From positions 1 through 64,000 of the forward strand of contig JABCSY010000006.1 in assembly GCA_018238625.1 (NCBI GenBank): DNA of 64,000 bases, read 5' to 3'. The notes beneath the pieces are model-generated. The model was not told the DNA's origin. It made no database searches and saw only the letters and a list, made by a program, of their open reading frames with translations. Shown piece after piece: positions 39,959-46,835 of this stretch (position 1 is its first letter; each line of letters starts with the position of its first letter). Source of the DNA: Promethearchaeota archaeon. Its GTDB lineage: Archaea; Asgardarchaeota; Lokiarchaeia; Sigyniarchaeales; SOKP01. The position numbers and the translations under genes were made by a program.

Positions 39959-42781
39959 TTAATAGTTATTCTCAAGCTCAAGTTTTATCGTTACTATTAT
40001 GTGCGGTTCCAAAGTTAAATCAAGATGATTCCCTTTACTTGAATCAATTTTTGCCTTAATGTCGTTTTCTGGCTTTTCTTCCAAAAAGTTTACAATATCC
40101 GCACTTTTGATGGAAGTTTTTTCGTGTAATGTTAACCTAGCTTTTTGAGTGGTTGGAGTGATGTTGTAGACTCTAACAACTAAAAACTCTCCTTCCTCCG
40201 ATTTCTTCAAAGCGCTAAGCATCACATTCCTGTTATCGATTTCAAGAAAGCTTAATTCAGCGGGTAAATAAGGTTTTAACGGTTGAGTAGGTGCTGGTTT
40301 AAAATATGAGATGATTCCAACAGGTGCTAGGATAACTTTATTCGAAGCTCTCATTGATGTTCTAACTATTGAGGGAACCACCACCTCAAAAGGGTTGTTA
40401 AATTCTTTACTTTTTATGTGAACGCTCGAATCTAACCAATTAGACTTGTTTCCTTCGACGACGAGAGAAAGTTCGAAAGTATGCTTGCCAAGACATTGAG
40501 CTTCTGGAGTATTTAGGTCTGGACCGGCGTTACTCCTTCTCGAGGCAAAATCGCCTCTTGAAAGCCATTCAATACACCGCAGTAATGTAATAGCCAGCGA
40601 AATAGTTCCATCTTTGTTTATAACTGCTTCGTATTCGGGTAATCCTTTGTTTATAACCGAAAAAGTTCTTGATGCATCGTTAACAGACACAAAGTCTTTC
40701 TGATGGTTAGTAGGTAAAGGCTGTTGGGCCCACCCTTCAGACTCTGGCATCTCAACATCTCGCGAAATGACGTAAAAATGACCGTCGGATTCTACTTTTT
40801 TAGATTTAATATTTGAAGGAAAAATTACTCGTATTCGATGGTCTTTACTATTGTTTTCTAATTCAATCTTAAAATCAATTCGTTTAATGTCTTTATATAC
40901 CGTTATATAGATATCAATTAAGTTTGAAATTAGATATTCGTCTCTACTATATCTATCATCGGTTAAAGAATTAGGCAAATTGATGTTTGCTCGTATTTTT
41001 ATCGTTTTTTGGGTTGCCCCGTCTAAAAACGGTGTTATTTCTAGAACATTCAGATCTTCTGAGGTGAATTTTAGATCAGTTTGATTATCATATGGTCCAG
41101 AAAAGTCATATTCGTCCCCCCAATCTCCTACATCTTCAAAATAACAAATATTTTCGTACAAAGTTTTGCTTTCCTTATCTAAAACATCGATTTTTCCTTT
41201 AAAACTTATGTCGATTTTGAAAAACTGATTTTCTAAGCTATTTATACCTAACTTCAATTGTTCGCTCTTTACTACAGATTCTTCTGGTTTTTCTCCTGGT
41301 ACGATATAATAACACCTGTATCCACAAGCAGGAACCTCGGCTAAGAACGAACAATAATAACTAATCGAACCAATAATTCGATATCTTGGTTCTTCGTTGA
41401 TTTGAACGTATTGGTATGAGATCTCGTTACCTTCAGAGTCGAGAATTTTGAAAGCGTCTGGATTTTTAAATCCAGCTTTTTTAGTCATAGATATAATGTT
41501 AATATTTGCGATATCTTTTCGTTTCCAAGGAAGAGGATTAAATACTACGATCGGAATTTTATTCTCGTCTTCCTCAACTGTGATCAAATCGTATAGATAC
41601 AATAATGAATTTTTAAACACTTCAACACCGATTTGCTCCGCCCAATCAAACCTAGTTTTCATTTCTCTATGAACTTGATCAATAGAACAGCCACATATGC
41701 TATCGTGGGGGTGGTTTTTAATAAGCCATTTTAAACCTGTGAGCATATAAGCTTGAGGGTAATTAAAATTTTTATATTTATCGAGAGACCATATAATTGT
41801 TGATAAGGGTTCTGTATATTTTTCGTACAGATATTCAATTGCTGTGTTTCTCTGTTTGATCCACATGCGAGCTGAAAATACTCCTGAAAGTAGATGAGCG
41901 TACTTTCCCCCTCTTAATTCGCCTTTGAACTGTTTTAACTCTGGATTACAGCCTAATACTTTATCGATGTAATATTCAAAATCGTTTTGTTCTAAAAGTT
42001 TCTCGGGATACATTTCGTTCCATTGTCTGACTATTTCAGGAATTTCCGATCGAGCTTCATGATGATCTGAACCGCTATTCAGAAGAACATAAGGTGTAGC
42101 TGTGAATTTTTCGAACTTGGAAACAACCCTTTTTATCTTATGAAGCGCTAGTTTATATTTTCCACTTTTTTTTGATAAATTAAGATCAGCAACCGAACCG
42201 TAGCTCTGCTTTAAAAATATTCCTAAAATAGAGCTAGAATCTCCGGGGGAATTCCAAATAAATTCAATGTTCAAGTTGTTTTCTTCGAATTCGTTACCAA
42301 ACCCTCGCCAGAATAAAATCGAAGGGATTTCAAATCCTTGAAGTATTTGAGGTAATTGAGCAATGTGGCCAAATGGATCAGGGATATAGCCTGCCTTCAT
42401 AACCCTTCCAAATCTTTTAGCAACTTTATGTCCAATTATTAAGTTCCTAATTAGAGATTCGCCACTTACCAAAAACTCATCTGGTAAAATATACATAGGG
42501 CCAATCGAAAGCCGCCTTTCTTTTACGTATTTTTTTATCTCATCTTCAAATTCAGGTCGAACTTCAAGATAGTCTTCTATCGGAATCGTTTGTCCGTCAA
42601 GAGTGAAGTTTTTATAATTTGGGTCGCTTCTTAGGATATCTAAGAGCTTATCCATCATAAGAACTAGTCTTCCTCTATACTCTTGAAACGGGAGATACCA
42701 ATCATGCTTTATACATCAATTGTATAAAGTTTCACGGTCCCAATGAGTTTCAGGAACTATAATTATGTTATTAGCTTTCAC
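39959..42781 (-). CDS. GH38 alpha-mannosidase, interrupted by a 30-nt intron-like insertion
   Basis: A glycoside hydrolase of family 38 (alpha-mannosidase), about 930 residues when spliced. Exon 1 (42731-42781) starts at GTG and encodes ANNIIIVPETHWDRE; exon 2 (39959-42700) continues WYLPFQEYRGRLV. The join restores HWDREW, the zinc-binding signature at the start of the family. Downstream, FTLDGQTIPIEDYLEVRPE, the nucleophile region AGYIPDPFGH and NHPHDSICGCSIDQVHREM are all conserved. Without splicing, the frame carries a TGA in the insertion and the protein would start at an internal ATG, losing the zinc-binding His and Asp. It would trim mannose from glycans. The C-terminal beta domains are complete. 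Confidence 0.88.
42701..42730 (-). other. Putative 30-nt archaeal (bulge-helix-bulge) intron in the GH38 gene
   Basis: On the coding strand the insertion lies exactly between GAA and TGG of HWDRE|W. It contains a perfect 9-bp stem, CTTTATACA with TGTATAAAG, closed by a 5-nt loop. Exon CGTG pairs with intron CATG in four base pairs (one G-U). The bulge AA|A lies on the 5' strand and AT|T on the 3' strand, each three bases and on opposite sides of the 4-bp helix. Cutting after the second base of each bulge removes exactly these 30 bases and restores the motif. The insertion is a multiple of three but contains an in-frame TGA. The outer exon helix is weak. Confidence 0.85.
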
Positions 42782-45479: not shown

Positions 45480-46835
45480 CATTTTTCGCAAAAGAAAACA
45501 CGTTCCTTTAGGGATGCGATGAATTTTGCATCACTAAAAATTGAACCTCTTCTTCTTTAAATACAAGAAAATAATAGATTAACCAATGCAACTCGTTCGA
45601 CAAGTTCAATTCAAACGATCAAATCTCTTGGACGAGATAACTTTTCTTTCAAAAAACTTGTTTAACGTTGCCACCTACACGGTTCGACAACGGTTCTTCG
45701 TGGATCGTCATTGGGCTCGATATAACGAGTTATGGAAATTGCTAAAAACTCACGAGGCGTATAAAAAGCTTCAAGAGACGTGCGGTTCTCATCCGCCACA
45801 GCAAGTCCTTAAACAAGTAGATCGAAACTTCAAGAGCTTTTTTAAAGCGATTAAAATATGGAAAAAAGAACCGTCTAAATTTCAAGGAATGCCAAGGCTC
45901 CCACATTACAAACGTAAGAACGGTCGTAATTTGGTCTATTTCACTTCATTACAATGTAGGTTGAAGGACGGTTTTGTTTTACTCACGAGAAAGATGGAAA
46001 GATTAGGCTTTCCGAAAATAAAAACGGATCTCGAAAGCGTGAAAGGAGTTCGCATCGTTCCTTTCGGGGATCGATATAACATCGAATTGATCTACGACTA
46101 CGAGCCACTAGACTTGTACTTGAACGAGGATAACGTGTTAGGGATCGATTTAGGACTTAACAACATCGTAACTGCGTCAGATAACGTTGGAAACAACCCA
46201 CTGATTATCAAGGGCGGTGTCGTGAAGTCGATCAATCAATTCTATAACAAGCAATTAGCCAAATACAAATCATTCAGCAAGATTTGTAACGACACCGAAT
46301 TGACTAAGCGCATCTTGAAGCTTCATCGAAAGCGAAACAATAAAATTAGAGATTTTTTCCACAAAACTTCGAGAAAAGTAATCAATTACTGCATTTCTAA
46401 CGATATAGGAACGATAATCATCGGGTATAACGAAGGTTGGAAGCAAATGATCGCGATAGGGAAGAAAAACAACCAGAACTTCGTTTCCGTGCCATTGTTA
46501 AAACTCGTTCGGCAAGTAGAATACAAGTCCGAGATGGTTGGAATTAAAGTGGTGAGAATCACCGAAGAATATACTTCGCAAACGTGCTCTTCGTGTGGAG
46601 TCGTACGCAAGTCAAACCGCAAGTATCGCGGTCTATATGCGTGTAAAGATTGCGGAGTTGTTCTAAACGCCGATGTGAACGCTTCAAGAAACATGATACA
46701 GAAAGGAGTCCCTGAGTCCAAGTGGTTAGGGGATAGAGGATGCTTGAACCATCCATTAGTGTTAAAAGTTTAACGACTCTTAACCTGCGAATCCAAGCCC
46801 TTTAGGGTGTGGTAGTTCAATCAAGCGTGATTCCA
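45480..46835 (+). mobile_element. TnpB-only IS200/IS605-type element
   Basis: A single tnpB gene is flanked by end-like sequences. On the left is a hairpin-rich stretch (GATGC near 45516 pairing with GCATC near 45531, next to CCTTTAGGG). On the right, CCCTTTAGGG and GTGTGGTAGTTCAAT lie 15-45 bases after the gene, typical of this family's right end, where the guide (omega) RNA is encoded. No tnpA transposase gene is present, so the element moves only if a TnpA acts from elsewhere. Exact ends cannot be fixed without an empty site. Confidence 0.6.
45586..46773 (+). CDS. tnpB: TnpB RNA-guided nuclease
   Basis: A 395-residue TnpB. The RuvC active site is complete: Asp in VLGIDLGLNNI, Glu in IIIGYNEGWK and Asp in NADVNAS. 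The zinc ribbon has TCSSCG and CKDCG. The N-terminal part starts LVRQVQFKRSN and has the family's helical region. The gene is less AT-rich than its neighbours, which fits recent arrival. It looks intact and probably active. Confidence 0.93.
   Translation: MQLVRQVQFKRSNLLDEITFLSKNLFNVATYTVRQRFFVDRHWARYNELWKLLKTHEAYKKLQETCGSHPPQQVLKQVDRNFKSFFKAIKIWKKEPSKFQGMPRLPHYKRKNGRNLVYFTSLQCRLKDGFVLLTRKMERLGFPKIKTDLESVKGVRIVPFGDRYNIELIYDYEPLDLYLNEDNVLGIDLGLNNIVTASDNVGNNPLIIKGGVVKSINQFYNKQLAKYKSFSKICNDTELTKRILKLHRKRNNKIRDFFHKTSRKVINYCISNDIGTIIIGYNEGWKQMIAIGKKNNQNFVSVPLLKLVRQVEYKSEMVGIKVVRITEEYTSQTCSSCGVVRKSNRKYRGLYACKDCGVVLNADVNASRNMIQKGVPESKWLGDRGCLNHPLVLKV

Follow-up and report, generated by a model that had tools for sequence, protein, structure and literature searches.

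Evidence for a probable mobile BHB-type pre-mRNA intron in Lokiarchaeal GH38 genes, with homing endonuclease genes beside some of the genes and not inside the intron

Pre-mRNA introns in the cbf5 gene of Crenarchaeota were reportedly described by Watanabe in 2002. These BHB introns of archaeal mRNA measure 16-44 bp and are too short to hold an endonuclease gene (Yokobori 2009, PMC2738675). In Haloferax, a BHB intron in the 5' UTR of HVO_1309 is cut from the mRNA by the splicing endonuclease, and the 2020 paper describing it named cbf5 as the only other case of a BHB mRNA intron then reported (PMC7714728). Both systems differ from the putative Lokiarchaeal introns considered here. The cbf5 intron belongs to another gene and another phylum, lacks an endonuclease gene and agrees with vertical inheritance followed by losses, whereas the Lokiarchaeal introns are patchy, linked to LAGLIDADG homing endonuclease genes (HEGs), placed at active-site codons and found in several core genes. 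The HVO_1309 intron, which likewise is a BHB intron taken from mRNA, lies outside coding sequence, is a single case and has no HEG.

LAGLIDADG genes within archaeal BHB introns are well known. The archaeal rRNA introns with such ORFs resemble the Lokiarchaeal ones in BHB splicing and in having a homing endonuclease at a conserved target, but their ORF lies inside the intron, whereas the Lokiarchaeal intron has only ~30 nt and the ORF lies outside it, upstream of the protein gene. In 'collaborative homing', free-standing HEGs target the insertion sites of phage group I introns; there too the endonuclease gene adjoins the intron and is absent from intronless alleles, but the intron there is a group I ribozyme that splices itself and not a putatively protein-spliced mini-intron. 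HEG elements of the Allomyces atp6 type in fungal mitochondria replace an end of a host gene, so that the HEG enters with a replacement gene end and the old end is left as a remnant; these elements differ in residing in a fungal organelle, in usually replacing the 3' end and in lacking a BHB intron. The open-access PMC literature yielded no description of a BHB intron in any protein gene of Asgard archaea, and since subscription papers and most preprints lay outside that search, priority is not proven.

The GH38 locus of the window

The window (the whole 64,000-nt stretch of DNA analysed) harbors on its minus strand a GH38 gene that starts with GTG at 42781 and reads through 17 codons (VKANNIIIVPETHWDRE) before it is interrupted at 42730-42701. 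The interruption is 30 nt long (ACTTTATACAATTGATGTATAAAGCATGAT) and contains a TGA in frame, at 42718-42716. The GH38 reading resumes at TGG (TGGTATCTC..., WYLPFQEYR) and runs for 913 more codons to a stop at 39959, and deletion of 42701-42730 in silico yielded a single ORF of 930 aa. The GTG start agrees with the starts of the orthologs, and stops close the frame slightly upstream. Exon 2 matches the Pfam family GH38 (PF01074, E=1e-28) together with the mid and GH38C domains. The first-pass annotation, made from the sequence alone, had placed a 30-nt insertion at 42701-42730, splitting the zinc-binding motif of a GH38 enzyme, and the coordinates proved exact and the Pfam family the same. Its 9-bp stem, CGTG/CATG helix and AAA and ATT bulges are likewise correct to the base pair, and its contention that cuts by the bulge rule remove the 30 bases and restore HWDREW holds in silico in all eight genomes found to carry the insertion (hereafter carriers). 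The predicted spliced junction, also in silico, is ...GACCGTGAA/TGGTATCT..., the slash marking the join. The features, all on the minus strand, are as follows.

42731-42781, minus: GH38 exon 1, 17 codons from the GTG, ending ...CAT TGG GAC CGT GAA; exon 1 of the orthologs is also 51 nt.
42701-42730, minus: putative 30-nt BHB intron ACTTTATACAATTGATGTATAAAGCATGAT, the sole copy within the window.
39959-42700, minus: GH38 exon 2, from WYLPFQEYRG... to the stop, with the N, mid and C domains of GH38.
42730-42732, minus: 5' bulge AAA; cut after base 2 inferred from the canonical BHB rule (exon ...GAA / A intron).
42733-42736, minus: central helix, exon strand CGTG, pairing with 42703-42706; 4/4 pairs in 8/8 carriers.
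42721-42729, minus: inner stem, 5' strand CTTTATACA; from sequence and covariation.
42716-42720, minus: loop ATTGA, in which the in-frame stop TGA occupies 42718-42716.
42707-42715, minus: inner stem, 3' strand TGTATAAAG; from sequence and covariation.
42703-42706, minus: intron side of the central helix, CATG; six further carriers read CACG (G-U to G-C).
42700-42702, minus: 3' bulge ATT; cut after base 2 inferred, exon 2 beginning with the T of TGG.

No second copy of the 30-nt insertion was found in the window, which leaves an origin by tandem or direct repeat unsupported. Several known kinds of insert were also rejected: identity with the cbf5 pre-mRNA intron, the host gene being GH38 and not cbf5; a group I or II intron, which needs a catalytic core of at least ~200 nt where the insert has only 30; and an intein, which needs an in-frame protein splicing domain where the insert is 30 nt with a stop codon. 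Near the GH38 locus, an IS605 OrfB/TnpB-like ORF (PF01385, PF07282) is present on the plus strand at 45586-46773 of the window.

The insertion in relatives, its fold and its putative removal from RNA

A search with the spliced GH38 protein against 117 related genomes and GTDB contigs revealed a 30-nt insertion at HWDRE^W in eight Lokiarchaeal genomes (G000, that of the window, and G009, G005, G003, G001, G034, G041 and G061). The DNA-level comparison of Asgard GH38 relatives, which the first-pass annotation had proposed as a check, thereby divides the genes into eight with the insertion and 39 orthologs without it, in which GAA or GAG runs straight into TGG. All eight insertions lie at the identical codon boundary, have exactly 30 nt and contain at least one in-frame stop, which is TGA, TAA or TAG depending on the genome. 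An exact-pattern scan of 79 genomes of the order returned the eight GH38 copies and no further copy. At E<1e-14, a covariance model of the GH38 intron retrieved the eight GH38 copies and nothing else from the 117 genomes, indicating that this intron sequence itself has not dispersed to other genes; its marginal matches include intronless GH38 genes from other families.

An equivalent insertion in the proteins of relatives had been named at the outset as an outcome that would refute an intron. Relatives do have such an insertion, at the DNA level only, and as it holds in-frame stops in every one of them it cannot be a protein insertion. Readthrough of the stop, by selenocysteine or other recoding, would turn the insert into 10 additional amino acids, as its length in GH38, divisible by three, and the UGA of the window would allow; this reading has almost nothing left to recommend it, given that the stop is not the same in every genome, that the sister introns elsewhere have 29, 31, 32 or 33 nt and that the insert would break the metal-binding motif. 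A pseudogene or an assembly error deserves mention in that all sequences compared are MAGs, the window's own assembly being 7.6% contaminated, and perfect hairpins are known to be prone to errors. The carriers, however, are Lokiarchaeota/Lokiarchaeia MAGs from several independent projects, which excludes an assembly error for practical purposes; moreover, site and length are kept in all eight with covarying stems, the remainder of the 930-aa frame is intact and like insertions occur in single essential genes (aIF2gamma, EF-1alpha), so that the chance of either defect is judged negligible.

Folding of the window's intron as a single sequence gave an MFE structure with the 9-bp stem and not the full BHB (z=-2.3), and the outer exon helix of the window's BHB is weak, with one C-G pair. 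For the seven distinct GH38 introns, RNAalifold, left to itself, arrived at the BHB core as the consensus, with the 4-bp helix of exon and intron separated by the 3-nt 5' bulge from the inner stem of 9 bp. In the GH38 intron alignment, 94.5% of the cells were paired, compared with only 25-56% for slid structures; two-sided compensatory changes were found in 5 of 13 pairs (1.7 in the shuffled control), and the covariation score was 0.264 against 0.116 for shuffled alignments, with 0/500 shuffles as high. Exon 1 ends in GACCGTGAA, the bases that the central helix needs for its four pairs, in all eight carriers and in none of the 39 non-carriers, which show 18 other versions at this position; base-pairing constraint as well as co-conversion could be the source of this exon conservation. 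A scan for BHB structures combined with an open frame over 0.9 Mb of the window's own genome gave 82 real and 76 decoy hits, without significance. As real hits equal decoys, structure alone is unconvincing and the comparative evidence carries the case.

The window's own genome encodes an alpha-like splicing-endonuclease subunit (L001) that keeps the catalytic His and Lys and whose nearest PDB entry is 3p1z (E=8e-35), the Aeropyrum enzyme. It also encodes a second subunit (L002) from which the His is absent and which, judging by its alignment, looks like a structural beta subunit, as well as an RtcB ligase (L294); the catalytic residues of both subunits were read by inspecting alignments. ARAGORN detected one tRNA on 60 contigs of this genome. 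It is with heteromeric splicing endonucleases that relaxed motifs and the splicing of cbf5 have been associated (PMC2738675). In the proposed mechanism, the alpha/beta enzyme would cut after base 2 of each 3-nt bulge flanking the 4-bp helix, and RtcB would join the exons to give ...HWDREWYLPF... and a full-length GH38 enzyme, RNA cleavage and ligation both being inferred.

Ribosomes might instead hop over the 30-nt hairpin without any splicing, as in T4 gene 60; the hairpin is short with a stop codon near its start, and bypassed hairpins of like size are known from other systems. In most carriers, however, the predicted landing triplet, GAT (GAA in one carrier), differs from the GAA of take-off. 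Several unrelated sites also form the exon-intron helix and obey the 2-base bulge rule, neither of which bypassing requires, and splicing enzymes are present in the genome, all of which makes bypassing a very improbable account. The insertion is very probably a tiny intron excised from RNA by the archaeal tRNA-splicing machinery, splicing being inferred without RNA evidence. The earlier description of it as intron-like is backed by the conserved site and length, the compensatory pairs, the retention of the exon bases and the enzymes in the genome; site, length, fold and covariation are all directly visible in the sequences.

Patchy occurrence and adjacent homing endonuclease genes

A LAGLIDADG ORF was found antisense to and directly upstream of the intron-bearing GH38 gene in G009, G003 and G001, that is, in 3/8 carriers and 0/39 non-carriers (47 loci), absence being judged only within the flanking stretch examined. 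The GH38-site HEG, which in G009 spans 567-1826 of L035, has two motifs (WLGFLYADGS and W(V/L)LGxYDGDG) and matches Pfam LAGLIDADG_3, and the profile of its family matched I-AniI (E=2.6e-5) and, more weakly, I-MsoI and I-HjeMI in the PDB; an AlphaFold model of the endonuclease (3 sequences) reached a pLDDT of 46 and was set aside. Beyond the HEG of G009 there is another exon 1, without an intron (...CATTGGGATCGCGAA/T). Its break coincides precisely with the intron site, and the DNA upstream of it is native, with 92% identity over 148 nt to the intronless L034. In the working gene, exon 1 is recoded and the upstream DNA is unrelated. The simplest reading of this arrangement is that a cassette of HEG, replacement exon 1 and intron may have entered an intronless allele where its target had been cut.

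Relatives of this HEG, 30-37% identical (alignment A3) and with invariant catalytic Asp positions, sit upstream of other conserved genes that are likewise interrupted. The window's own genome contains two further LAGLIDADG ORFs, L161 (G000:C12) and L213 (G000:C42), with 37% and 27% identity to the GH38-site enzyme, respectively. In addition, related HEGs (L152, L203, L204 and L210) lie between two copies of a gene's 3' end, in a SNF2 helicase, an aldolase-like protein ending ...SVDEAYKIYENGPKGL and a phosphoglucomutase (RPSGTGPDVRFY), suggesting putative intronless 3'-end replacement elements.

On a tree of 47 GH38 proteins built from exon 2 only, the eight carriers need 8 gains or losses, at least 6 of them forced by supported branches, and their scatter equals that of shuffled labels. 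Each carrier has an intronless sister, that of the window being L033. The window's intron (g1) is identical to the intron (g8) of G061. That genome belongs to a different genus, and its gene shows ~97% identity to the intronless gene of G059 except near the intron, where it resembles the window gene instead. The exon beside the intron is more diverged than the gene remainder in several carrier pairs; because some intronless pairs also diverge locally, the pattern in G061/G059 and G009/L034 is suggestive of co-conversion and not decisive. No endonuclease gene adjoins the window's copy, and its upstream DNA is common with G005 and not with an element, consistent with the inferred transfer of the intron and a short tract.

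These data bear on whether the intron is mobile at all. A BHB intron ancestral to the Lokiarchaeal genes and lost many times, with nearby endonuclease genes coincidental or directed at other targets, would parallel the cbf5 introns, which show vertical inheritance and losses (PMC2738675). Close relatives do have similar intron sequences, and five of the eight carriers have no adjacent HEG, so that the mobility of those copies is inferred. We nevertheless consider an immobile intron unlikely, in view of the intronless sister of every carrier, the g1 sequence in G061 despite the kinship of that gene with G059, the HEG beside carriers only, the 5' end of the G009 remnant broken at the intron site and the recurrence of a G009-like arrangement in the CobA gene (see below). 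The mini-intron family to which the GH38 intron belongs, and which also interrupts core genes of translation and transcription, appears rather to have been spread by DNA-cutting homing endonucleases. A LAGLIDADG endonuclease would cut intronless alleles at the conserved HWDRE^W codons, and repair would copy the intron with a short flanking exon stretch, the presence of the intron destroying the target site; repair would sometimes also copy the endonuclease gene with a replacement 5' exon. DNA cleavage and the direction of transfer are inferences, and the patchiness, the endonuclease-gene linkage and the broken G009 remnant are observed. We hold with high confidence, in the absence of RNA evidence, that the best explanation overall is a mobile BHB-type pre-mRNA intron whose homing endonuclease has its own gene next to the host gene. 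The first-pass annotation had overlooked the patchiness of the intron, its link to HEGs and its membership of a class that occurs in several core genes.

Mini-introns in other conserved genes

Further introns were located by following relatives of the GH38-site HEG. As the genes inspected were solely those next to such relatives, the number of introns should be taken as a minimum. BHB introns of 29-35 nt were identified in EF-1alpha (5+2 genomes), aIF2gamma (17), cobalamin adenosyltransferase (CobA; 17) and RNA polymerase A' (RpoA1; 6), all carriers found falling in one family (f1) among the families sampled. In these four genes, canonical cuts restore P-loop or active-site motifs, in silico only. 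EF-1alpha is interrupted at GHIDHGK^ST by introns of 31-33 nt in five genomes, where the canonical cut ([ATGG]AA/N...[CCAT]AN/A) restores GHIDHGKST in 5/5 and, of all the cuts that restore the protein, gives the best BHB, again in 5/5. A second site, GH^ID (G008), has a 31-nt intron with a perfect central helix, and the canonical BHB fit is imperfect at a third, LV^II (G061).

In aIF2gamma, an intron of 29-30 nt at GHVDHGK^TT was found in 17 genomes. At this length the reading frame is also shifted in most of them, and the canonical cut restores GHVDHGKTT; the canonical BHB rule is fully met in 14/17, the other three being imperfect. The window's own assembly contains two aIF2gamma genes, L215 (G000:C165) and L231 (G000:C106), one with an intron and one intronless; the intron on contig G000:C165, which is not counted among the 17 genomes, is identical to that of G012 and lies near the contig end, and this contig is probably contamination. 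Lokiarchaeal aIF2gamma proteins (L139, L147, L214-L230) also have an N-terminal helix-hairpin-helix extension of ~110 aa before the G domain.

CobA harbors an intron of 29-31 nt at VYFGRGK^GKTTAA in 17 genomes, and the canonical cut both restores VYFGRGKGKTTAA and is the best cut in 17/17. The window's own genome is among those with such a mini-intron (29 nt at VYFGRGK^GKTT in L295; G000:C195:4500-7500, minus strand, about 1976-2070). In G052 and G064, the order at CobA is remnant exon, endonuclease and new exon, as in the GH38 locus of G009. Six genomes have an interrupted RpoA1, with as many as three sites affected, and both site-1 introns are imperfect against the canonical BHB. The RpoA1 gene of G037 (L312) has two insertions 5 nt apart, GH^IE and IE^LA, of which that of G031 (L313) has the second only; in G037, the TATA/TATA central helix of the second insertion forms only once the first is removed. 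Pooled over all genes, 4/4 central pairs are present in 44 of 48 distinct introns, compared with 12.6% for cross-gene halves, and when at least 5/6 inner pairs are also required the values are 75% and 1.4%, respectively.

It is likely that Lokiarchaeia harbor an undescribed class of mobile element, in which a free-standing LAGLIDADG gene moves together with a ~30-nt BHB mini-intron and a 5' exon that replaces the old one, and that pre-mRNA splicing is routine for their core genes. The proposed class would target the most conserved codons of protein genes, namely the P-loops of EF-1alpha and aIF2gamma and conserved codons in CobA, RNA polymerase A' and GH38. BHB introns in archaeal coding sequence had hitherto rested on cbf5 alone; a single Asgard family now contributes five or more genes with roughly nine sites. 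As single-copy essential genes are included, these archaea probably rely on the splicing of mRNA. With standard gene callers, the intron-bearing proteins come out truncated or are missed. This affects Asgard trees and 'missing' genes, since EF-1alpha, aIF2gamma and RpoA1 serve as standard markers in phylogenetics. Furthermore, a minimal spliced intron with a separately encoded homing enzyme provides a testable model for the spread of short mRNA introns, set in a lineage close to eukaryotes.
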